In this document: positions 3,927 through 53,961 of the stretch, in pieces
Layout of the letters: each line of letters begins with the position of its first letter
Numbering within the stretch: the stretch's first letter is position 1
NCBI GenBank assembly: GCA_021464245.1
Contig: JADCRB010000019.1
Coordinates: 3,701,130-3,765,129 of the forward strand
DNA: 64,000 nt
Origin: Carallia brachiata
Taxonomy: Eukaryota > Streptophyta > Magnoliopsida > Malpighiales > Rhizophoraceae
Direction: 5' to 3'
The notes under the pieces: model-generated
What the model saw: only the letters and a program-made list of their open reading frames with translations
Databases searched by the model: none
What the model was told of the DNA's origin: nothing
Made by a program: the position numbers and the translations under genes

Positions 3927-5084
3927 TCACAACCCTAACTTACCAAATTTCTTAATATCATTGTCGCTAGCATAATTTACCAATCTCCTCAAGGTAACAA
4001 AGCTCTTGGTATAAGAAGTCGCATGTAAACACTTCACCGATTTTGTGTTCAAAAATTTCTTTAAGGTCTTCGATTGCAGATGATACCGAAATAATCCTTT
4101 GTAAGCCCAAAACAGCACCAGTTCGGCATTTTCAACAATCACCACCTTTATATCATTTATTTCGTTGCCGGGAGTAAATGGATAGCGCTTTAAATCCCAT
4201 TCAAGACAGATCCGATATTTGTTAACCCAAACCCAATTGGCATAATCATGCAGGACCCACACGCCAATCTTTCCGCAACAAAACATACATAATGCCAATT
4301 GGCTTCCTATTTGCAAAAGTTGCATGCCAGGCGTTGGACGAGAGTGGCACATACTTCCTGGACAAGGACTGACATTAAATTCTTCGGTTTCGAAGGTAAA
4401 AGTCATGATAAGTGGCTTATCTTTGACCATCCAGTGCATAAGCCCTGCGATACATATAGGAGCCACTCCTACCTGAGGCCAGTAAACAAAAGAGCAAAGT
4501 CTTCTCCACCGCAAAGTACGCAAACTGAAAACTAAATACTCCCTATCATTGTTGATTTCAGTTGCATAAAGTATCCTATAATCTCTTATCAAAGGGTAGA
4601 AATAAATTCCACACAAATAACCTACTCTGTCAGGTCCTTTTAGTAGGAATCGTCCTGGCTTAAAGGGGTTCAACACATAGAAAAAATCGCTACCACCTGA
4701 CAATGGAGCAAACAAAAGCAACCCATGGCAGCAACCAAGGAGGAGTAACTCTCCTATTGGGGGCATAATTGACGAAAAATGGACTTTCTCAATCATCTTT
4801 TTCTTCTTAGCTTTTGTATCAAGAAAGGAAAATTGCTGCTCCCGCCCAGCAAGATAATGCAGAAAAGTAATTGAAGGAGCATTTATGGCATGCAAAAGAG
4901 TAAAATGAGGAGTTAAGGTCAGAGCTTCCCATCTCTTGGACACTTTACGACATCTGAGAACCAAATGAGCAGGAAGCCTACTGAGGATTTTAACAATGAG
5001 ATCGTTGGGAAGTGGACTAACTTCCTTTCTATTGATTAAGTGTTTGAAAATGCGTATCAACCGTATAAAGTTGCCAAATGCCAT
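3927..5084 (-). CDS. F-box protein with F-box-associated C-terminal region (385 aa)
   Basis: Residues about 21-60 form an F-box (SPLPNDLIVKILSRLPAHLV, then CRKVSKRW), the Skp1-binding module of SCF ubiquitin ligases. Residues about 90-330 resemble the plant F-box-associated substrate-binding region, with GCCHGLLLF followed by a VLNP-type motif and alternating aromatic and Trp-rich strands. By family knowledge the product would be a substrate adaptor in the nucleus or cytosol; the substrate is unknown. The reading frame stays open upstream to 5366, but the start is placed at 5084 because the bases just before this ATG form a good 3' splice site (pyrimidine-rich tract, GACAG, then GATGG), so the upstream part is probably 5'UTR intron. 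The length is usual for the family and no internal stop is seen. It is the only intact non-transposon gene in the first 58 kb. Confidence 0.85.
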   Translation of the reverse strand: MAFGNFIRLIRIFKHLINRKEVSPLPNDLIVKILSRLPAHLVLRCRKVSKRWEALTLTPHFTLLHAINAPSITFLHYLAGREQQFSFLDTKAKKKKMIEKVHFSSIMPPIGELLLLGCCHGLLLFAPLSGGSDFFYVLNPFKPGRFLLKGPDRVGYLCGIYFYPLIRDYRILYATEINNDREYLVFSLRTLRWRRLCSFVYWPQVGVAPICIAGLMHWMVKDKPLIMTFTFETEEFNVSPCPGSMCHSRPTPGMQLLQIGSQLALCMFCCGKIGVWVLHDYANWVWVNKYRICLEWDLKRYPFTPGNEINDIKVVIVENAELVLFWAYKGLFRYHLQSKTLKKFLNTKSVKCLHATSYTKSFVTLRRLVNYASDNDIKKFGKLGL

Positions 5085-5810
5085 CCTGTCAAAAAGACAA
5101 ACAAAATATGTTAGGAATTGGAATTCTATCTTGCATGTAAGCATTCGCTGTGAAGAATCTTTTTCCTTTGAGTGTCTGAAGATCATTTTATCCAACGTAT
5201 ATTTTATTAGCTCTACCATGCTTTCTATCAAAAACTGAGGCAAAAGAGAAGGACACTTACATACTGAATTACTAATCAAAATAATCAAATTATAAAGTTT
5301 ATTTTCATACAGAGAAAAGAGATGTACTAGAAAACTAAATATGGCTAGTCCACACTTGGGGTGCAAGCCATCTGGATAGTTAATTTGTTATGCCTCAGTT
5401 GCTCCTCTAGGGAAGGAAGCAGAATTTTGATTGCAACTGGGAACCTAAAGAGTATGTTGAGCCCTGGGGCTGTTCAATTCTAAATTTCTAATCCACAAAG
5501 TGACTGAAAACCATCATATATTCCGTCATAAACTTCCAAAGCCAGTTAATTGAGCTGATAGCAGATGAAGAAGAAGAAGAAGAAGAAGAAGAGAAGTACC
5601 TGCTAGTAGATGACAATGAGTTCTCTTATTCGAGTTCAGAAGCTGGGTTGCAAATTCTGTAAAACCAAACTGTTATACCTGCCACCCGGAAAGGGCAAGA
5701 GCGAGAAGGCTGGATTTGTTGCTATTGCTGGTCGCTCCACACAAATGGAGAGACGGGAAGATCGCTGCTACTGCTACTAAGAATCAATATATATTCACTC
5801 TAAAAGCAAT
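5085..5810 (-). other. 5' leader of the F-box gene with probable UTR intron and (GAA)n tract
   Basis: On the minus strand an acceptor (GACAG) sits immediately before the F-box start codon. A matching donor, CTAGCAG/GTACTT, lies at about 5600 and is followed by a CTT/GAA microsatellite (5566-5593). A non-coding first exon at about 5600-5800 with a 0.5-kb UTR intron is the simplest reading. Exon limits need transcript evidence. Confidence 0.45.
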
Positions 5811-7468: not shown

Positions 7469-10400
7469 TTAAACTGAAATGTTCAAAGCATCCATAAATA
7501 TTACATGAAAAACAGTAGGAAAAGCATTAGCATCCCAAATAACAGCCCCAGGAACTAGTAATGCCTTCTTAGCTAACAAATGTGCAACTTCATTTCCTTC
7601 CCGAGGCACATGAGAAACAGAAACTGCCTGAAATTCATGTATGAGCGCCCCAATATCCGCATTAATCAATCCAAGTGAAGAAATTGCAGAGGAATTATTG
7701 AGGCAAAAATTCACAGCTTCAAGACTATCAGATTCCAAGCACACCTGAAGAAAACCCAATTCCTTAGCTTTAGAAGGCCCAAACGAATGGCCATCAGCTC
7801 CAAACAGTAGGAGAGAATGACCCCGGAATTTGTTGAGAAAAAACCAGTAGAGGTTCTCCCCATTCTCCCCTTATCACTACCCCGATACCCCCACAGGTTG
7901 CACCAATTGCAGCATCAGAGTTTATCTTGATTCTGCCAGGAGCTGGTGGTCGCCAAGACACCCGCAATTGGTCATGTGGCGGATTAACACTGCTAGATTC
8001 ATGGGTCACTATGAACTCCCCATAAAGCTTCAGCGCCATATGAGTAGTTTGAGAGGGGTCCACAAATTTGTGCTCCATCAACAGCAAGTTCCTTGCTCTC
8101 CATATTGCCCAAGACACCATAAAAAATATTTCCAAATGCTCAGCCACTCCCGAATTTATAATAAAATGCAGCCAATCCCACAAGTCAAATGAGGATGGTC
8201 TCGAACACGCAAAGCTAGAGGAGACAAAAACCACACACTAGAAACCCATGGACACTGAAAGAAGACATGGTCAATTGACTCTACTGCCAAACCACATCTT
8301 GAACAAAACTCATCTACCATCATGCCCCTTTTTGCCAAAGCAACATTTGTAGGGAGGAAATTTTTACAAATGCGCCAGGCAAAATGCCTAACTTTGCCAG
8401 GTATCTTCAAGTGCCAGATTAGCTTCCAAATTGAGTTGTCACAGTTTGAACTAGAGGCCAAACAACCATTAGCTTGTAAGCCTCCCCATTGTTGGGCCAT
8501 ATAATAACCCGATCGTACAGAATATATTCCGTCCCTAGTAGAATGCCAGATTAACTGATCCTGAATAGCACGAAGACTCAAAGGGATAGACAAAATCAAA
8601 GGCCATTCTGATGGCATAAATAGATTTTCAATCAAAGGCCTCTTCCACTGTCTTAAATCATGATCAATCAGAGAAGATACCTGCATTGGCGCATCAGCAG
8701 AAGGGATTGAAAGCACCTTAAATCCATTTTGTCCCTGAAGCCATGGATCTCTCCATATATTAATAGATTCCCCATTTCCAACAACCCAAACAAGACCTTT
8801 CTTAAGTAACGGTCTGGCAGCACAGATACTACGCCACACATAGCTAGGGGACGAGGAAAGTGGAGCATCTAAAAAATTGGAATTTGAAAAATAGCGAGCC
8901 TTGAAGAGTTGAGAGAGCAGAGAAGACTCATTTGTAGAAGCCTCCATCCCTGTTTCCCAAGCATGGCTAGATTAAAATTATGAAAATCTCGGAATCCCAA
9001 ACCTCCTGTAGCCTTAGACTGAGTAAGCTTAGCCCAAGTAGACCAATGTATTTTCTTCCTGTCATCCGAACTCCCCCACCAGAATCGATTAACCAAATTA
9101 GCGAGCTCTTCACATAAATTAAGAGGCAAGAGAAACAACTCATGACATAAGTAGGTATGGCTTGGACCTGCTTTCACAAGGACTTCTTTCCCAGCGCGAG
9201 ACAGAAGTTGTTCTTTCCACCCTTGAATTCTGCGTCGAACTCTATCCAAAATCATGGAAAAAGCTCGTTTTTTAGAGTAACTAATAAACATGGGCATCCC
9301 AAGATAATCTGATGTCTGTCCACAATCTTGACAGCCAAGCATTGCTGAATTCCTCTCGGATAGAAGCCTTAACATTGGGAGTAAAAGAAATTTCTGTCTT
9401 TTCAAAATTGACTACTTGACCAGACGCTTTCTCATATGACTTCAACAGCTCCTTGAGATGGCAGCAATCTGAGATCGAAGCTCGAGAAAAAATTAAGCTA
9501 TCATCAGCAAAAAAGAGGTGGGTAATTGTTGGAGCACGCCGACAAATACGAACACCTTGAAACTCCCCTGGTTTGCCGCAGATGAAAGTAAAGAAGATAG
9601 GCCATCTGCACACAAAAGGAATAAATATGGGGAAAGTGGATCCCCTTGTCGAAGACCTCTTGAAGGCTGAAAAATATCACGAGGAGAGGAATTAACAATA
9701 ACAGAATATGATACCGAAGTAACACATCGCATCACTGTACCACCCAGCCTTTATCAAATCCCATTCTAAGCATGATCCCCTCAAGAAAAAGACCATTCAA
9801 CTCGATCATAGGCCTTACTCATATCTAATTTTAAGGCAAAATAGCCAGACTTCCCTTGATGCTTGTGATTCAGAAAATGAAATATCTCATATGCAATTAA
9901 AGCATTATCTGTAATAAGTCGACCAGGGACAAAGGCACTCTGATTTGAGATATAATTTGAGAAAGAATCGATTTGAGTCTTAGCGATCACCTTCGTAATA
10001 ATCTTCATCATCACATTACACAAAGAGATCGGCCGGAAATCCTTGCAAGAAACAGGACTGGACACTTTGGGAACGAGACAAATATTTGTATGATTAATAG
10101 GACGAGGATCACCACCATTATTAAGCACATCAAGAGCCACTGCCACTACTCTATCCCCCACAACATGCCAAAAATGCTGATAGAAAAGAGCAGGCAAACC
10201 ATCAGGACCTGGAGCCTTAGAAGGATGCATCTGTTTAAGAGCCTGATATATTTCATCTGCTGTGTATCGGTGACAAAGGAAAGCATTCATTGAAGTTGTA
10301 ACTCGACAAGAAATTGTGTCTAACACCGACTCCATATCTGTGGGACCTTGCGATCGAAATAAGTCTTGGAAATAGGAAGTGACCGCCGTTGCTATTGAGG

Positions 10401-11589
10401 AGTCCGTAGCACATAGACGTCCTTGATTATCCACGAGTTTGAAAATACGGTTTCGTCTACGGCGTTGTGAGGCAATAGCATGAAAATACTTAGTGTTTTG
10501 ATCACCCTCACGCAGCCAAGATGCACGAGACCGTTGAGCCCACATAGACTCCTCCCGTTTCAGCAACTCATCAACAGTATTCTGGATAGAGTGGAGTTCT
10601 GCAAGGTTATCTGCTGTCGGGCTACATTGCTCCAAATAGGCTTGGCGTTGACGAAAGCCACGCAATTGATTATTCACGGAGCCAAAATTGCATTGTTCCC
10701 AATCTCTTAAAGCAACAGCACAACCGTTCACCATAGAAGAAAATTCAGTTATTGATGGACAAACATGGCATCCATCCCAAAAAGAAGAGACGGTCTGCTC
10801 ACACGTAGGGTCCCTAAGCCACATACTTTCGAAACGGAAAAATTTTCTGTTAGCAGCAAAGGCATGACCTTGAGTAGAAAAAATGGATACCTGGAGGGGA
10901 TTATGATCTGACCCAAACCGTGGCAGGACAGAGGCATGTGTGGCTGGGAAAAGATCAAGAAACTCCTGTGTTGCTACAGCACGATCCAAACGCTCTTGAA
11001 CATTATGCAAGCCCCCCCTTCCATTTGTCCATGTGAATAGAGGGCCACTTGTGGTTAAACCTTGCAATTGACAATTCATCAATGAGCCTTGGAAGCTTGA
11101 CATAAAGCTGGTTGGGCGAGGGCGACCACCTCGTTTTTCAGAAGAAAATAAAATCTCATTGAAGTCACCACAACAGAGCCATGGAAGAGAACTTTGACGC
11201 TTCAATGTTGAGAGTAAATTCCAAGTGAATTTTTTATCACAATTTTCAGGCCAACCATATATACCAGTAAATCGCCAATCTCGACCCAACCGAACGTCTG
11301 TAATATGAACATCAATGTGGTGTGAGGACATAGTCTGCAATGAAACCATAGAACTATCCCTCCATAATAAACCCAATCCCCCTCCTCGATGTCTACCAAC
11401 TCCATGGCAATCCACAAATAAACCATTAGCGAAACCAAGTTGTTGTCTGAGATGCTCGGTTTCATTAGCTTGAAGTCTTGTCTCCATAAGAAAGACCAGA
11501 CTAGGGACTTGAAGCGAAATTAGCTTCCTTAAGCGATTGACCGCACGTGGCGTCCCCAAACCACGGCAGTTCCAACTTAGAGCTTTCAT
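7469..11589 (-). pseudogene. LINE ORF2: endonuclease, reverse transcriptase, zf-RVT and RNase H (several frameshifts)
   Basis: ATG 11589 opens an apurinic-type endonuclease domain (MKALSWNCRGLG at the start, GDFNE in the middle, GSDHNPL near residue 230). The reverse transcriptase follows from about residue 470 (KAPGPDGLP, KDFRPISLCN, FALKLDMSKAYDRVEW). A frameshift stops this frame at 9781. Further fragments carry [13 protein letters not shown], the catalytic FADD box (about 9500), the thumb/connection region, the zf-RVT domain (IWRDPWL, then CSRCG...ESIDHVFFQCPW) and an RVT_3-type RNase H (INSDAA, ESDSLEAV, REGNEVAHLLAK). Frame changes occur near 9781, 9720, 9500-9610, 9280-9400, 8870-8950 and 7770-7810. 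The domain order is complete, but the protein cannot be made. Confidence 0.9.
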
Positions 11590-11629
11590 GGCGACCGGCA
11601 GGGCTGACTAGCAGCCTCTGCCGATATAG

Positions 11630-28900: not shown

Positions 28901-29934
28901 TATTAAACGGGTTATCAGGTTGGGTCACTTTGAGTGCGGGTCATTTAGGGTCAAGTTACCTTCGAGTTATTTCGGGTTAAATCGCTTTGGGTTTGGGTTG
29001 GGTTAGGGTTGACCCATGGATTGACACATTTTTTTGGAAAAAAAAAATCAAAATTAAGATTCATTTTTCTAACCAAGTTGCTTTACATTCTAGAGTGTAC
29101 ACATTTAGTTTTTGAGTAATTAACTTTTGTTGCTTGTATTAAAGAAATATGAAAATACTCATATTTCGTAAACTTCGGTAAGTTTATAAGTCATCAAAAA
29201 AAAAAAAAAGTATAATATGTATTTTTGGCACTCAAATGTTCTCATCTAGCTCTAGGCAATAAAAAAACATGTAATTGCACGATCACTTATCACTCCGAAT
29301 GAGTTGAATTTCCAAAATAACTATGGAAATGATATAAACATCGTTACTACTTTGTAATTGCACAGCAAGAAAAAGAGAAAAAAAAGCTTCAACATAAAAC
29401 AATGGTTTTGCTATAAGCTACTTTAAACCATTCCAACTATAGCTAGAGACATCTCATAGGCCTGACACAAAGTATTTTTAGATGTAACACTCTTGTATAG
29501 AGAAATGAGTGATAACTACTTTAAAAAAGAAGCTTAAGGCTTTAAAGGAAGTAAAACGGCCAACGATTTAATAATCACAGTAAAAGACAACAAAAAGATT
29601 GTCTAAAAGCTAGTTACATATAGTCAGTAGTCACACAATCAACAAAAAAATGCATAAAATCTTATTGACACTAATATCTCCGCCAAAGACAATCTCGCTG
29701 CTAAAACCAATATCCACATTCTCAATGTCTCTATTTTCCTTATCCGAACTCACACAATTTGAAGCTATCAAAGATGAATCTCCCACGACATTCAATTTTG
29801 AAAATTAAATGTCTAGTCCAACAACTTCTTAGTCATTGTCCTCATCAACAACTACATTGATTTTAATTATAAAATGTAAATTAAAAACTATAGACAAAGA
29901 ATTGGAAACTTAAATATAAGGAGAAAATGATATT
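28901..29934. other. Repeat-like GGGTT-rich patch and AT-rich DNA
   Basis: 28900-29020 is full of GGGT(T/C) words, like the sub-terminal part of a hAT MITE, but no paired end or TSD was identified. The rest holds no supported gene. Confidence 0.3.
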
Positions 29935-31873
29935 ACCATTATAACCATAAAACCAATTGCGTGTTGTGATCAAAACTTGAGCAGTTTCTGGTAAAAGGGA
30001 AGCTCTCCATTTGGATATAACTCTACCCCCATGCTAAAAGTGGACTCTGAAGCAACCGTTGTGATTGGTATGCTTAATATGTCTCTAGCCATGAGAGAGA
30101 GAATTAGAAATCTATTTTGACACGATTTCCACCAAGAAAGAACATCCAAATGAGATTGATGAGCTTATTTAGTCTTTTTTAAGTATAAATCTAATTCTCT
30201 CTGCTCTAATTCTTATGTATTGCCTCAAAAAAATCAAATTCCTGCAAAAACAATCAATTAGTAATCATTAATCAAGACAATATTAAAATTTAAAAATTTA
30301 TCAAAAATCATTTACAAAAAATAAACTTACTGCAAAGTCATCTTCTGGAGCTGAGTTAGAATTTGAGTTGCCACGTCGAGTGAGAAAAGATGATGATGGA
30401 GGGTTCTTACTTGCATATTCTTTGAACAATCACACAAGCTGAGCATGAACCTTATCAACCTTTTCTTTTATAGTTGAAGAATCCAACTTATTAAAGCAAA
30501 ATTTTACAAATTCCAACTTATAACGAGGATCACAAATCATAGCAAAAGAAAGTACCATTCTATAGCAACTCCAAAACTTATAAACTTTATCTTCATCTCC
30601 CTTGACATTTCACTTATTTGAGAATCAGGATGTTCCATACCTTCAAACAAGCGAATCTCAATCTTACAAATATGTAGAAAATATAAATTGGCTGTTAGAT
30701 ATTCACTCTCAGAAAATATTTTAGTAATTTCATCAAAGGGTTTCAAAAGATGAAAACTTTTCTCAATTTTAATCCACTCTTCATCTGTTGGATACCAAAC
30801 AAAATTACTATCAACTAATTTCAAACAAGTAAAGGCATCACGATAAATAAGTGCCCTCATAAGCATCTCATATGTTGAATTCCATCTTGTGACACAATCT
30901 AACCATAATGCCTTAGTACAATTAGCACACTTCTCAAATTTCAATTTTCTTGCTTCTGAACCCTCCACATATTTAATCCCATCTCTAATGTTCTTAATAG
31001 CACCACTAATCATCTTTAATTCATCTTGCACTATCAAATTTAATATGTGTGCATAACAACAAATATGAAAAATTCACCATCACAAAGTAACCAATCTTGA
31101 AGTTTCAAGTGATTGAGTAACAAATCTTACATATCATTACATCTTGCATTATCCAAAGTAACAGAGAAAATTTTTTTTAATTCCCCACTCATTCAAAATG
31201 TCAAAAACTTTACTATACAAAACAATAGCAGTATGTGGAAGAGGGACATGACAAAAACTCAAAATTTTGCTATTCAACCTCCAATGTTCATCCACAAAAT
31301 ATACAGTAAGACAAAGATATCCTTGAGACAAAGTAGAGGTCCATATGTCACATGTCAAACAGATTTTGCTAGGGATCTTCTCCAAAACATTTTTCAATCT
31401 TCTTTCTCTCTTTTGTGCACCTTAACACAATATGCTTTTGCAGTGTTCCTAATTATAAACTTGACATCTCCATTCAAATATTTATGTAAATCTCTATTTT
31501 TCTCATGTTCAACAAGGGTGAATGGATATGCATGTCTAATAATAGCAATAGTAATTTTCTCTTGATACACTTTCTACTCAATTTTTCTTGCTTTTTTTTT
31601 TTTGCTCTACATCTTTCTCAATTTCTCATGACATACTAAAAGATGACAATGCATATTTGAAGTTCCAAATGAGGATTTAGCTAGATATAACCTACCACAA
31701 TACTTGCACTTTGCTCTCAACTTTCCACCTGGATTCTCTTCTTTGGGAACCACCATAAATTCTTCCTAAACAGTGGCGACAAGCTTCCTTTTTTTTGTGA
31801 CTGTTGAGTTTGAAGAGCCACCCTCGACAATATTGCAATCATCACTAGCATCTGTTGAAATTCTCAAAGACAT
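29935..31873 (-). pseudogene. Decayed hAT transposase (RICESLEEPER/BED type)
   Basis: Fragments on the minus strand follow the family order. ATG 31873 opens a Ser/Lys-rich leader; a BED zinc finger (CKYC...MHCHL) lies at about 31640-31715. A catalytic-region piece with LTCDIWTSTLSQGYLCLT is at 31149-31397, then a long piece with LWLDCVTRWNSTYEML (30537-31037). A DUF4413-like CDPRYKLEFVKFC is near 30500. The hAT dimerisation region (LSLMARDILSIPITTVASES) is at about 30050-30115, ending with a WFYGYNG-like motif near 29940. Stops and frame changes separate all pieces. Transposases of this family excise and insert hAT elements with 8-bp TSDs. The element's own termini were not identified; the nearby CACTA element begins only 60 bp beyond its start. 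Confidence 0.85.
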
Positions 31874-32303
31874 GGCTACAAAATATAAAAGACAAACTAT
31901 TAAAAAAAGAGCAAATTCTTGAAATAAAACTACACTACAACAAAACAGATTTATACCAACGATTTTAAAACTGTTGTTTAAAAGATATAATGCATCGTTT
32001 TTATACTACGGATTTTGAAACCACTGCATATAGCATTTTATGCAGCAATTATATTCTGGCGATTAGAAACTGTTGCAACGAATATGTTTATGTAGTAGTT
32101 TTAAGTGGCGGTTTTAAACCGCTGCTCTAATGGGCAGTGGTTTTATTAATATATTGCAATGGTTCATTAAAAAATAATAAAATAATTTGAAACTTTACTT
32201 TTCTTTCGTCAAACACATTCAAATTTATAAAAGCAGAAATTCTCTTAAATCAAAAAGAAATCCTCCTAAATCAAGACAGGTCATCTTCCCCCATTATTAT
32301 TAG

Positions 32304-32718
32304 TGTTTTCAAATCCGGACCGAATTGGTTGGTCAGACCGGTTCAACCGGTGACCGATCGGGGGTTCGGCCTGGTTTGGGAAAAATTTTGACAATGACTC
32401 GGATAAAAAAAAAATGGTTAAAATCGGTAAAAATCGGACCGGTTGAACTAGTTTAATAAAATTGAAAATTTTATAAATTATAATTTAACTCTAAATGTTA
32501 TTTAAATTATAATTTAATTATTAAATTTAATTAAAAAATTTAATTTAGTCTTAAATCTATTTAAAAATTTAAATTTCATCTTTAAAATTAAAAAAATTAA
32601 TATTTAATTAATATTTAGAATTATTATTTTTTAATTACTTATATATATATATTATTAAATATCATTTCAATTAACTCACTAATCTTTTCAGTTCAATAAC
32701 CAGTTTAATTTTGACAAT
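32304..32718. mobile_element. CCGGTT-family MITE inside the CACTA element
   Basis: It shares the CCGGACCGAATTGG / GACCGGTTCAACCGGTGACC outer region and the AT-rich middle of the copy at 6826-7315. Ends are GTTTTCAAATCCGG and, inward from the right, ATTGTCAAAATTAAACTGG. It sits just left of the captured calmodulin leader. Confidence 0.55.
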
Positions 32719-32806
32719 AATAATTATTATTATTGAAAGAATCATTTTCCTTAGTCATATTCTTTCGATTTTTATTTTTCTTACTCTCTAAACAGCCAAA
32801 GAGAAA

Positions 32807-32881
32807 ATGGCCGATCAACCAACCGACGACCGAATCTTTGAGTTCAAGGAGGTTTTCAGCCTTTTCGAAGTGGAAGCGATG
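32807..32881 (+). pseudogene. Captured calmodulin exon 1 with leader and start of intron
   Basis: The 25 codons beginning MADQPTDDRIFEFKEVFSLF match the start of plant calmodulin (which begins MADQLT and continues through the first helix of EF-hand 1). The next bases are GATG/GTATTTTCTC, the conserved intron position in plant calmodulin genes inside the Gly-26 codon. The exon is one base shorter than expected before the donor, so the EF-hand loop residues are out of frame (FEVEAM). A leader (about 32735-32806) and C/T-rich intron sequence come with it. The second exon, with the other EF-hands, is absent. It cannot make calmodulin, but it could supply a start codon and leader to a chimeric transcript. 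Confidence 0.8.
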
Positions 32882-33301
32882 GTATTTTCTCTCAGATCTC
32901 TCTCTCTTCTTTATTCTTTTTCTCCCCTTTATGATCGCTTCTTCTCTACTATTTCTTATTTCTTAGATTTAACTATCTGTTTTGTTTGTTATGGATCTGC
33001 CGTTAGTTTTGCCTGTATCTCTAGCCGGAAAACACATCTTCGAACAGGTTCGTTGGAGGCAACACTCCTCTACGATTGGTGAATTGAATGGTAAAATTTC
33101 ATATTTTATGGCTTAGAATGCTAGTTTGAGGCAGCAACTGGGCGGGCCGCCAAATGGGATGTGCCCGCCCGCTACCCCTATATATCTGGGAATGGCGCCT
33201 ATGGCTTATCCATGGGTCTCATGTGCCCTTTGCGTTGTTAAGACAAATGGTCCTAGGTGCCCTTGGTTCCAATCCCCAGATTGAAACCCCAGTAGCCTGT
33301 T

Positions 33302-33962
33302 CCAGCAGCAAAAGCCAGAAAGGTGGATGGTAAGAAAGCTGAGGGCAAAACTAAGAAGGTTGCTAGCATTAGTTTTCTGGGTTTGTTGTTTTTCATTTTG
33401 CTGTTTGGTGGGTTGGTGGCGTTAGTGGATGCTAATTTTGGAGGGTAGGACTAACAGTGTTCGCCAGGTGAGTTTTGTTGATGAAAGGTCCAACAATCAG
33501 CATAGAGGGATAATTTTGATAGTCGGAGAAGACAACATGAGAATGGTGGGAATGGATGCTCGGAGCATCATGTTGAAACTAATTTAGGCAAATCTGGTAG
33601 TCCCAGTAATTCTAGTGAACCACTCGTTGCATCTTTATATGTGCCAAGGAATGATCAACTTGTGAAGATAGATGGCAACTTGATAATTCATTCTATTGTG
33701 GCAAGTGAGAAAACTATGGCACCCCTCAAGACTCCTGAAAGTAAAAATAGTCAGACAGGTTTGGCTGTCCTTAGAGCTCTGTCTCTGGCACTGGCTATTC
33801 CAGATGTTGGAAGAAATGGAGGTAAACATTCTCAGCCTCATCAAGGTCTGACGAAAGGGCAAAAGGCCATTACTTCTAGGTCTGCTGACACTTTGAAGGA
33901 CCATTTGAAGTTTTCTGCTGCCGACGGTAAGCTACAGCAATGGTTCTATAAAGGCCTTGCAG
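33302..33962 (+). pseudogene. Captured fragment of a membrane-bound bZIP17/28-type transcription factor
   Basis: 33305-33430 encodes a Lys-rich linker and then a transmembrane segment (VASISFLGLLFFILLFGGLV). Further pieces correspond to the lumenal part. From 33641 an open stretch encodes VPRNDQLVKIDGNLIIHSIV, then SRSADTLKDHLKFSAADGKL and QQWFYKGLAG, ending at a GT donor (33963). By family knowledge, bZIP17/28/49 are ER-anchored stress factors cut by site-1 protease. The N-terminal activation and bZIP domains are missing. Stops after the membrane segment (VDANFGG then stop) and around 33580 break the frame. It lies in the same orientation as the calmodulin and flotillin pieces. Confidence 0.8.
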
Positions 33963-34681
33963 GTACTTGACTTTCTATTTATTTATTTATTTGTTTGATC
34001 ACTTGGTGCTTTCAAGTAAAGAAAGCAGTCGTACGCAGCTTTAAGAAAGCTTTTTATTCATTTGACAACATCCTAATCCACTTTTGAATTAATTCATCAT
34101 ATTAGTTATATTTGCTGCCGCACAACTTTAGATTTTCTACAAGATAATTGGTAGAGAATAACTCTATATATATATATATAGAGTTAATAGCCAGTAGAAT
34201 TTATTTCATTGCATGCTTTCCAAAAATTATTAACTGTGAGTTCAATTTGTGTATGGGAAGCTTGATTTATACTGAGAATGAGTCTCGTTTTTTTTTGCTT
34301 GTGAGCTGGCTTGACTTCTTTATGGAAATGTAAAACAAAGTCTTAATGGGAATGGTTCAGGTTTACTAAGATTTGTTTTGTTAATGAAGTTGTTTATTAT
34401 TGGCAGATGGGCCTCATGGAATACTGTATTTGGTGTCTGGTTCCTGCACAAGGATATGTGCATGCATGTGACATGTGACCTGCTCATGCTACTTGCAGAT
34501 GTTTTTGTATGTAATTTGGAAAATTTTTTTACCCATGTTCTTGAATACTTTTGATGTGTGCAACCTGTGTGGCACATCCATTGCTATACATCATTGGCTG
34601 TTGTACTCATTACGATGACTCTATTCATCTTGTTGTGTTCTGTTCTAGATGCATGTGTCGACTGGCTACAACAGATGGTTT

Positions 34682-34898
34682 TTGGCAATTTGAAATAGCA
34701 CAGGCCAATGTTGAGCTAGCATCCAAGAAGGCAAGGTGGCAGCAGGCAGCTAAGGTTGGAGAAGTGGAAGCTGCCAAAGTTGTGGCAAATATAGAGGCAG
34801 TCCTGTTGTCTGAGGCGAAAAGGATGATTGCAGAGACATAGACAAAGAAGCTCAAGGCTGAGTTGCTAACTACGACCAAAGTGGACTATGACATAAAG
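34682..34898 (+). pseudogene. Captured flotillin-like exon fragment
   Basis: The frame encodes AQANVELASKKARWQQAAKV, then EVEAAKVV, an Ala/Glu-rich coiled-coil run, and KRMIAET, stop, TKKLKAELLTTTKVDYDIK before a GT donor at 34899. This matches the C-terminal flotillin domain of plant FLOT proteins, where repeated Ala-Glu heptads are followed by an EKLKAE...YETKV block. One stop interrupts it. Flotillins are membrane microdomain scaffold proteins; the N-terminal SPFH domain is absent here. Identification rests on the heptad pattern plus the following block. Confidence 0.7.
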
Positions 34899-35456
34899 GT
34901 TGGTGAACCCTTTAATTCCCTTGTTCCAATAGTATGGTATATATGTGGAGCTTTTTCTACTGTCTATTTGCTGTTCTCCATTCAAAATCTTAGCTGAGTT
35001 TTTGGTCGTTGGTCAAGTTGGGAGTTAAAGCAAGACATTATTTCATAAGTTGAATATATCGAGATTTGGAAGAAAACTCTCATCATTTTTATTTGAGAAC
35101 TATTGATTATTAATGAGGTCTATGAAAATAATTATTTTCTCAAATTACATTTACACGAGTACTTTTGCTAAAATATATAAATAATTTGAATAATGATATT
35201 AGTCTAACTTGGTACCTGAAGAGAATTACACAAATAGATTTTTAAGTGATGTGAATATATCTAATTTAATAAAATAAAAATATTAAAAGAAAAAAAATGC
35301 CTAGTGTAACTCTGTTGTCTTCATTTTAATGCATTCATGTAGCCTGGTTAAGAATTGAAGTCATATTTCATCAAACACATTAAAATGTTGGAGAAATAAA
35401 AGAAAAGGATAAAAGAAAGGAACTTTGGCAACTGCCATGAATTTTATGTTTCAATT

Positions 35457-35800
35457 GTGGACATTTGTTGCCGATGTAGAATATTTTGCATGGAAGCTAA
35501 TGATAAAAAACTTAAGCAAACACTTCCCTACTTGTTTGTTTGTTGCTTTTTTGAGGATACATCCAAAGATGGAATACCAGTAGTCATCTTAACAGCTGAT
35601 GGTAAAAGTGATGAAAAATTGGTAGGTATATTCATGTCGTGATTGTGCTATTGTTTATAAGTATGCCGCATTTATATGATTAATTTACAAATACGTTTTT
35701 GATTTATCAATTGCAGGAGCATCATGTGTGGAGGTTGCATTGCTTAGGAGAACATCCTTTTGACTTGAAGGATTATAATGCTCTTATGTATACCTCATGA
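35457..35800 (+). other. Two unassigned exon-like stretches inside the CACTA element
   Basis: 35457-35642 is open, encoding EDTSKDGIPVVILTADGKSD and ending at a possible donor (TTG/GTAGGT). After an AT-rich gap, a good acceptor (TTATCAATTGCAG, about 35717) is followed by EHHVWRLHCLGEHPFDLKDY up to a stop near 35800. The exon-intron-exon form suggests a fourth captured host fragment. I cannot name the gene. Confidence 0.35.
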
Positions 35801-35989
35801 AAGCTTTACACATTATTATAAAAATACCAATTATGGATTATTAATGACTTGTAGTTTGGATGTTCGAACTCATTTATTCTTATATTGCACAAGTTAAATG
35901 TTATATGACAATTTATTTGTGTTTGAATGTTTGAAAATTTGTCTTAGTAAGTAATATTTTAAAAATTATATGCAAATTGTGTCAAATTA

Positions 35990-36420
35990 GTGAAAATTGT
36001 TACCTTAGCCTCTTAAAATTACTGCCTTTTCTAATTCAAACTATTGCTCTTTCAATTGAAAACCGCTGCCTAAGTTTTTCAAAACCGTTGCCTTATCTAT
36101 TCTAAACTATTGCATATGTTATTGAAAACCGTTGCCTTAGCCACCTAAAAACCACTGTATTTTCTTATCAAAACTGTAGCTTTTTCATTTGAAAATAGCC
36201 GCATAATACCGTTGTGATTGATAAGGAGAAAGGCTGTAAAAAATCTTTATATAACAGTTTTGATTAACGTTGCAATAGTGTTGAAAGCCGTTGCATAAAG
36301 GTTATTGTTGCGTTATCATAATGCAACGGTTAAAAAACCTTAGCCTTAAATAATAGGCAGCAGTTTTAGGCCTTTAGGTTGCGTTATTTAACCGCTGCTA
36401 AAAGGCCTTTTATGGCATAG
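35990..36420. repeat. Right sub-terminal repeat region of the CACTA element
   Basis: Repeated variants of AAAACCGYTGC occur in direct orientation (for example near 36060, 36080, 36125, 36280) and inverted orientation (TGCAACGGTTAAA near 36325, GGCAGCAGTTTTA near 36357), with further copies at the left end. Such clusters are transposase-accessory binding sites in known CACTA elements. Confidence 0.7.
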
Positions 36421-36626
36421 TGATATAAAAATATATAATCCTTCTTAAAAAAAAAAGAAATGAAAATACAGAATATTGGGACGACTCCACTTAAATTACT
36501 TATTCTAATTTGCTTAGTCTAATTGGTGGACTGATGGTTGTTATGACCCTTAACTTCCATCAAATAGAAGTTCAAACTCCATAAAAGCTTATTCGAAAGT
36601 AGACAAAACAAAAGTAGCAATCTTAA

Positions 36627-37560
36627 GGGGCCGTTTGGAGTGGTTTAAGTTTTCTGTTTTCTGTTTATTTTTTACAAAAAAAAACAGGAAACATGTTTGT
36701 TATTTATTCTATTTTCTGTTTTTTTTGAAAAGTTAAAAGTGTTTTTCAAAGAAAAAAAACAGATTGGGAAAACAATAAAAATAGCTTTCCGATTTTGTTT
36801 TTCACTTTTTTTTCTATACTTTCTCTCACAACTTTTTCTCTTTCTATCCACCCTCTTATCATATCTCTCTTTACTCATCCTCTCTCTATCCCTCTATATT
36901 TTTTCTCTCACTACTCTTTCTCTCTTACCCATTCTCTCTCTACCCTCTCTCTCCTTTTCTATCTCTACCATTCTCTCTCTACCCTCTCTCCCCTTTTTCT
37001 ATCTCATCATTCTCTCTTTACCCTCTTTTCCCCTTTTTCTATCTACCATTCTCTCTCTCTCTCTCTCTACTCATTCTTCTCTACCCTCTTTCTCTTTTTC
37101 TCTTTCTACCATTATCTCTACCAATTCTCCCTCTACCCACTCTCTCTTTCCTTTTTCTCCCTCAACCATTCTCTCTACTCATTCTCTCTGTGCTCCCTCT
37201 CTCTCTCTCTCATTTTTCTCTCTCCACCATTCTTTCTTCTTTTTCTTACTCTATCATTCTCTCTACTCATTCTCTCTTTGCCTTCTCTCTCTCTTTCTTT
37301 TCTCTCTACCATTCTCTGTCTACCCATATTCTCTCTCCTTTTTCTTACTCTACTATTATCTCTCTACTCTCTCTTTCTCCTTTTTCTCTCTCTACTCATT
37401 CTCTCTCTATCTAGATTCTCTCTCTTTTTTCTTGTTTTACCATTCTCTCTCTACGTTCTCTCTCTTATTTTTCTTTTTTTATCATTATCTGTACTCGTTC
37501 TTTCTATACTCTCTCTCTCTTTTGTCTCTCTGTCATTTTCTCTACTCATTCTCTCTCTTA
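36627..37560 (+). repeat. Pyrimidine-rich minisatellite in a Harbinger/Tourist-like element, copy 1
   Basis: It begins GGGGCCGTTTGGAG after a TTA, then about 0.75 kb of CT-rich repeats built from CTCTCTACCATT and CTCTACTCATTCTCTC units. The same structure lies inverted at 52704-53961. GGGCCGTTTGG with TTA is typical of Tourist-type MITEs. The right end here is replaced by the GC-rich repeat at 37559. Long ORFs through the tract (up to 320 codons of Leu/Ser/Phe) come from stop-free CT composition and are not genes. Confidence 0.6.
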
Positions 37561-52703: not shown

Positions 52704-53961
52704 GGAGCCGTTTGTAGACGCTATTAATTTTTTGTTGCTGTTTCTTATTTTTTATTTTTTTGTTTTTGTTGTTTGTTTAATTTTTGTGTTTATTGTTGTC
52801 ATTTTTTTTACAAGAATAAAAAAGTAGATAGAGAAAGGATAGCGAGAGATATGGTAAAAAAAAGTATGAATACAGAGAGAAAAAGAGACGAGAGAGAGAG
52901 AGAGAGTAGAGAAAGAATGATTAGAGAGAGAAAAAGGAGAGAGAAATAGGGTAGAGAGAACATGAGTAGAGAGAATGGAAGAGAGAGAAAAGAGAGAGGG
53001 TAGAGAAAGAATGAGTAAAGAAAATGGTAGAGAGAGAAAAATAAGAGAGAGAGAGAGGGTAGAGAGAGAATGAGTAGAGATACTGGTAAAGCGAGAAAAA
53101 AGAGAGAGAATGTGGCTAGAGGGAGCATGAGTAGAGAGAATGGTTAAGCGTGAAAAAAGGAGACAAAGTGTGGGTAGAGAGAGAAAAAGAAGAGAGAGAG
53201 ATAATAGAGAGAGAATGAGTAGAGAGAATGATAGAGCGAGAAAAAAGAGATAGTGTGAGTAGAGAGAGAATGGTAGAGAGAGAAAAAGGGAGAGACAGGG
53301 TAGAGAGAGAATCAGAAAAGAGAATGGTAGAGTAAGAAAAAGGAGAGAGAGTGAGGGTAGACAGTGAACGGTAGAGAGAGACAAAATGAGAGAGAGAGGG
53401 TATAGAGAGAATGAGCCGAAAGAATGGTAGAGTGAGAAAAAATAGAGTATGGGTAGAGAGAAAATTGTGGAGATGAAAAAGAAGAGAGAGAGGGTAGAGA
53501 GAGAATGAGTAGACAGAATGATTGAGGGAGAAAAAGGAAAGAGCGAGTGGGTAGAGAGAGAATGAGTAGAGAGAGAAGAATGAGAGAAAGAGAGTGAGAC
53601 TAGAGAAAGAATGAGTAGAGAGAATAGTAGAGATAGAACAAGGAGAGAGAGAGGGTAGAGAGAGAAAGCATAGAGAGAGAAATAGTAGAGACAGAAAAAA
53701 TAGAGAGGGATAGAGAGAGGATGAATAGAGAGAGATATAGTGAAGAAGGTTGATAGAGAGAGAAAAAGTAATGAGAGAAAGTATAGAAAGGAAAGTGAAA
53801 AATAAAATAGAAAAATATCTTTTATTATTTTTTTATTCTGTTTTTTTCTTTGAAAAATTTTCATATTTCAAAAAAAAATGAAAACAAAAACGATAACAAA
53901 CATGTTTTAATTTTTTTTATATAAAAAATAAACAGAAAATAAAAAAAAATCATACTGAACC
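52704..53961 (-). mobile_element. Purine-rich minisatellite in a Harbinger/Tourist-like element, copy 2
   Basis: The left end is GGAGCCGTTTGTAG after TTA (52701-52703). The right end, read inward, is GGTTCAGTATGATTTT, and TTA follows at 53962-53964. Copy A has the uninterrupted site (TTGGTAAATTTA joined to a CCTTCAATGAC-type sequence), so this is a discrete insertion with a 3-bp TTA duplication. The interior is about 0.95 kb of GAGAGAATGAGTAGAGAGA and GGTAGAGAGAGAAAAAG units, the inverse of 36627-37560. The 370-codon minus-strand ORF is a low-complexity artefact. Confidence 0.7.

Follow-up and report, generated by a model that had tools for sequence, protein, structure and literature searches.

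A very probable Pack-CACTA transposon, decayed and carrying pieces of three unrelated host genes, in Carallia brachiata

One of the best comparisons for a CACTA transposon with host DNA inside it is Tgm-Express1 of soybean, a 5.7-kb element that holds five unrelated gene pieces and for which 12 or more different transcripts are reported, captured exons being present in 11 (PMC1947982). Another is the Tpn1 family of Ipomoea nil, where 339 elements are described and host genic regions have been captured (PMC5105172). In maize, Pack-TYPE elements often hold more than one locus, Pack-CACTA elements most of all (PMC8903248). Pack-TYPE elements are proposed to take up host DNA when adjacent insertions move together (PMC8903248; reviewed in PMC13317346). 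A count of CACTA capture events on chromosome 3B of wheat came to 140 (PMC4290129).

The DNA analysed here is a single 64-kb stretch of the Carallia brachiata genome (the window), dicot DNA of the nucleus. A CACTA-type element occupies positions 31933-36422 (4,490 bp). We regard it, with high confidence, as a non-autonomous, decayed Pack-CACTA transposon with fragments of three host genes, unrelated to one another, inside it. An earlier note on this DNA had proposed an element of this type, and its ends, its sub-terminal repeats and three homologies support that proposal. The three pieces, from calmodulin, bZIP17-type and flotillin genes, all lie on the plus strand, as the note had also said; because three pieces share an orientation by chance in one case out of four, this needs no special explanation.

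The left terminus, CACTACAACAAAAC, starts at 31933 and the right terminus, ...GGCATAGTG (CATAGTG), closes at 36422. The CACTA and TAGTG termini at these two positions are paired in inverse orientation, just as had been claimed. Beyond CACTA the inverted repeat is degenerate, with agreement at 12 of 20 positions anchored at the ends, and the best local match between the 400-bp ends was equalled in 17 of 300 shuffles. The inverted repeat past CACTA/TAGTG is weak, with no clear advantage over shuffled sequence. The flanking triplets, CTA at 31930-31932 and ATA at 36423-36425, form a candidate 3-bp target-site duplication; the two triplets agree at two bases and differ at the other. Within the window no second copy of the element was found, the matches being two of 24-25 bp.

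The case for a CACTA transposon is best made by the sub-terminal repeats. Matches to AAACCGYTGC were counted on both strands, the end zones being 31933-32250 and 36000-36422 (741 bp of the 64 kb). All four exact matches in the window fall inside these zones. Allowing one mismatch or none, 11 of 13 matches are in the end zones, against 0.02 expected from the rate elsewhere, and allowing up to two mismatches 22 of 74, against 0.6 expected; since the motif was derived from these same ends, the magnitude of this excess is overstated, and the confinement of the motif to the ends is unaffected by its origin. The motif is found in both ends and on both strands, and the dense repeats described in the earlier note are there.

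The left end (31933-32165, plus strand, probably 5') consists of the CACTACAACAAAAC terminus and nine AAACCGYTGC-like units; these differ from the motif at no more than two bases each, occur on both strands and in some cases are spaced 49 bp. Inward of it, A+T-rich DNA with short degenerate repeats covers 32300-32735 and has ACCGGTT motifs at 32337-32351 and 32438-32444. The right end (36016-36422, plus strand, probably 3') combines sub-terminal repeats with the ...CATAGTG terminus. From 36016 to about 36171 its units are spaced in a 22-bp register that slips by one base near 36148. This longer right sub-terminal zone resembles the 3' end of En/Spm; on this likeness the left end is probably the 5' end, and the captured genes therefore probably lie in sense orientation.

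Coding exon 1 of calmodulin (MADQPTDDRIFEFKEVFSLFEVEAM) is found at 32807-32881 on the plus strand. Of its 24 residues, 22 align with calmodulins, and the best structural chain is 4aqr, named calmodulin-7 (E 1.9e-4). A GT follows at 32882, which we take to be the site of the first intron in plant calmodulin genes; the exon and its donor site had been recognised correctly. Compared with calmodulin genes, the piece appears to lack one base close to the 3' end.

The bZIP17-type piece (33030-33962, plus strand) starts in the leucine zipper, crosses the membrane segment and reaches a lumenal GLAG. Its alignment starts in the leucine-zipper region at KHIFEQV (KHYVEEL in P0001, a protein of Erythroxylum), passes the membrane segment KKVASISFLGLLFFILLFGGL and ends at GLAG, where the DNA reads GCAG/GTAC, with the GT at 33963. 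The membrane segment and lumenal part of a bZIP17/28-type factor had been seen before, and to these the leucine-zipper start further upstream must be added. Up to the donor, 190 of 300 aligned residues are identical to P0001; when the alignment is prolonged past it, 192 of 304 are identical and a third stop appears there, beyond the donor. The joined query that holds the piece matches P0001 with E 6.3e-82, and its top match among the best 120 of 453 comes from Erythroxylum novogranatense. In a common alignment the piece is 60.3% identical to the Erythroxylum sequence versus 60.8% to that of Populus.

Two stops and three frameshifts within 33030-33962 are better evidence of decay than the changed columns are. 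Judged from the alignment, constraint on the piece looks lost, on a thinner case than is implied by its 11 changed columns out of 76. These 76 are the columns that at least 95% of 120 homologues share; among the homologues themselves the changed fraction is 1.4% at the median and 6.2% at most. Five of these 11 columns are in the first eight residues and one is beside a frameshift. Without the first 12 residues and the neighbours of frameshifts, 5 of 66 columns (7.6%) are changed; the highest trimmed count in the homologues is 4 of 63, so the piece lies above all 120.

The flotillin piece (34692-34898, plus strand) covers part of the coiled coil, residues 241-309 of plant flotillins, with one stop and a GT at 34899. 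Codons past this GT still match, by chance or otherwise. Between 35 and 42 of 70 residues are identical to flotillins of Medicago, Euphorbia, Salix, Jatropha and Ricinus (five of 119 listed), with scores of 159-192 versus at most 73 in 500 shuffles each, far enough apart to bear out the flotillin-like coiled coil reported earlier. These named plant flotillins were retrieved with a query that itself contained flotillin letters. The 49-residue open part of the piece had no match among solved structures, and the 70-residue region found nothing at E 0.1 in a large sequence database; the assignment therefore rests on the direct comparison with the named proteins.

Overlapping the element are 27 ORFs with a length of at least 50 aa; not one of them attains the cut-off of any Pfam family, so no transposase domain is seen. 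A missing TnpA/TnpD transposase is expected of a non-autonomous CACTA member. Weak Pfam matches inside the element (e.g., a nairovirus model, E 0.008) are all below cut-offs and are taken as chance. A plus-strand reading like two small exons (35562-35800, with GT at 35622, exon 2 from 35717 and a stop at 35798-35800) may be a further captured fragment, the fourth, or else the remains of a gene belonging to the element itself. A transposase of the element itself was considered for this reading and set aside, a Pfam search at E 10 being empty. Rfam at gathering thresholds gave nothing across the 64-kb window.

A broken hAT transposase gene occupies 29881-31873 on the minus strand (Dimer_Tnp_hAT 2.4e-17, hAT-like_RNase-H 1.6e-7), with a BED zinc finger slightly below its cut-off; the CACTA element begins upstream of this gene, 59 bp from the presumed start codon. 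An intact hAT element around the insertion was sought and rejected, as no end pair was outstanding (145 candidates versus 264 in a control pairing). A remnant of a non-LTR (LINE-like) retrotransposon with endonuclease, reverse transcriptase and zf-RVT domains lies at 8156-11607 (minus strand). Long CT/GA-rich simple-repeat arrays at 36650-37558 and 53002-53946 are in opposite orientation and about 76% alike over 975 aligned bases; their long Leu/Ser-rich ORFs are probably not genes. An F-box ORF with an F-box-associated domain is found at 3927-5387 (minus strand). Its closest match among the best 120 of 247 comes from Rhizophora mucronata (61% over 56% of a joined query) and is the single F-box protein in that list. 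Rhizophora mucronata and Erythroxylum novogranatense both belong to Malpighiales. Since the bZIP piece is as near to Populus as to Erythroxylum, it is the F-box match alone that indicates a family.

How did three gene pieces come to lie together between such ends? They might be ordinary neighbouring pseudogenes, with CACTA-like ends that arose by chance or from unrelated insertions, and the weak inverted repeat past CACTA and the weak target duplication would fit such an origin. However, the genes are unrelated, a short part of each is present, the three parts sit together within 2.1 kb, and the sub-terminal repeats that flank them are nearly missing from the remaining window; we hold this origin to be very improbable. 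For a Pack-CACTA element, the source of the cargo has also to be considered. Each homology stops at, or a few codons from, a GT donor. The earlier note had placed intron-like DNA beside each piece, which is found on the 3' side and is unsupported on the 5' side, and had argued for genomic rather than retro capture, a view that these donors favour. Capture from cDNA is very improbable: the flotillin and bZIP alignments do continue a few codons beyond GT, and the intron argument comes from the element itself, but each of the three homologies has, at its 3' end or close to it, a GT donor followed by A+T-rich, non-homologous DNA.

The captured pieces are dead as coding sequence; since they no longer code, any effect would act through RNA. 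Continued expression of the element as a spliced chimeric RNA, acting for example via small RNAs against the parent genes, appears unlikely. The single-strand order of the pieces, their GT donors and the calmodulin leader are in keeping with such an RNA, as is the splicing of Tgm-Express1 pieces into chimeric RNAs (PMC1947982). Against it are the coding decay and the bZIP piece, whose protein-level identity to the database homologues compared is at most 61%. A protein from the putative chimeric transcript would be broken by stops and frameshifts. A transcript that starts in the captured calmodulin leader, crosses the three pieces on one strand and yields a spliced non-coding chimera or small RNAs seems extremely doubtful; if it did occur, such RNA would touch calcium, ER-stress and membrane-domain genes together.

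We therefore prefer a decayed Pack-CACTA element with genomic cargo. We infer that it was mobile and that its three host-gene pieces, in whichever order they were captured, would have been acquired before its last insertion. Acquisition would most plausibly have followed the published route, the joint re-mobilisation of adjacent insertions. A transposase made by another element would have acted on the CACTA ends and sub-terminal repeats.

The literature search for work joining CACTA elements with calmodulin, flotillin or bZIP17 gave one paper, off the subject judging by its title. Rhizophora is unmentioned among the 12 matches listed out of 80, which include a transposon paper on flax (Linum), itself a member of Malpighiales. 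What is added here is one more multi-gene Pack-CACTA element, from the order Malpighiales; it is not put forward as the first in that order. The combination of genes had been called unusual; this is not upheld, as Tgm-Express1 has five unrelated pieces and maize Pack-CACTAs are often multi-locus. With such precedents published, the element is real but ordinary, and the picture of how such elements work is unchanged.

Tgm-Express1 resembles the Carallia element in its CACTA ends, its similar size (5.7 kb vs 4.5 kb here) and its parts of several unrelated host genes (PMC1947982). Its pieces are described as exon and intron parts with canonical splice sites. It differs in having five pieces, from other genes, in having inserted into a known gene, within an intron, and in being transcribed, and one chimeric ORF is described in its (-) frames (PMC1947982). 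The Carallia element is decayed. Tpn1 elements are likewise non-autonomous, with the interior replaced by host sequence and the TIRs and sub-terminal repeats kept (PMC5105172). A 3-bp target duplication is reported in all but one of the 339, 14 of them with a mismatch. Unlike the 22-bp units found here, the transposase-bearing members of Tpn1 show 122- and 104-bp tandem repeats, and the copy number of Tpn1 is known (PMC5105172). While published Pack-CACTAs were annotated genome-wide from TIR pairs and ours is the one copy seen in a 64-kb window, with degenerate TIRs, it shares with those of Arabidopsis, rice and maize the combination of CACTA ends and captured coding DNA, which in maize often comes from several loci (PMC8903248).
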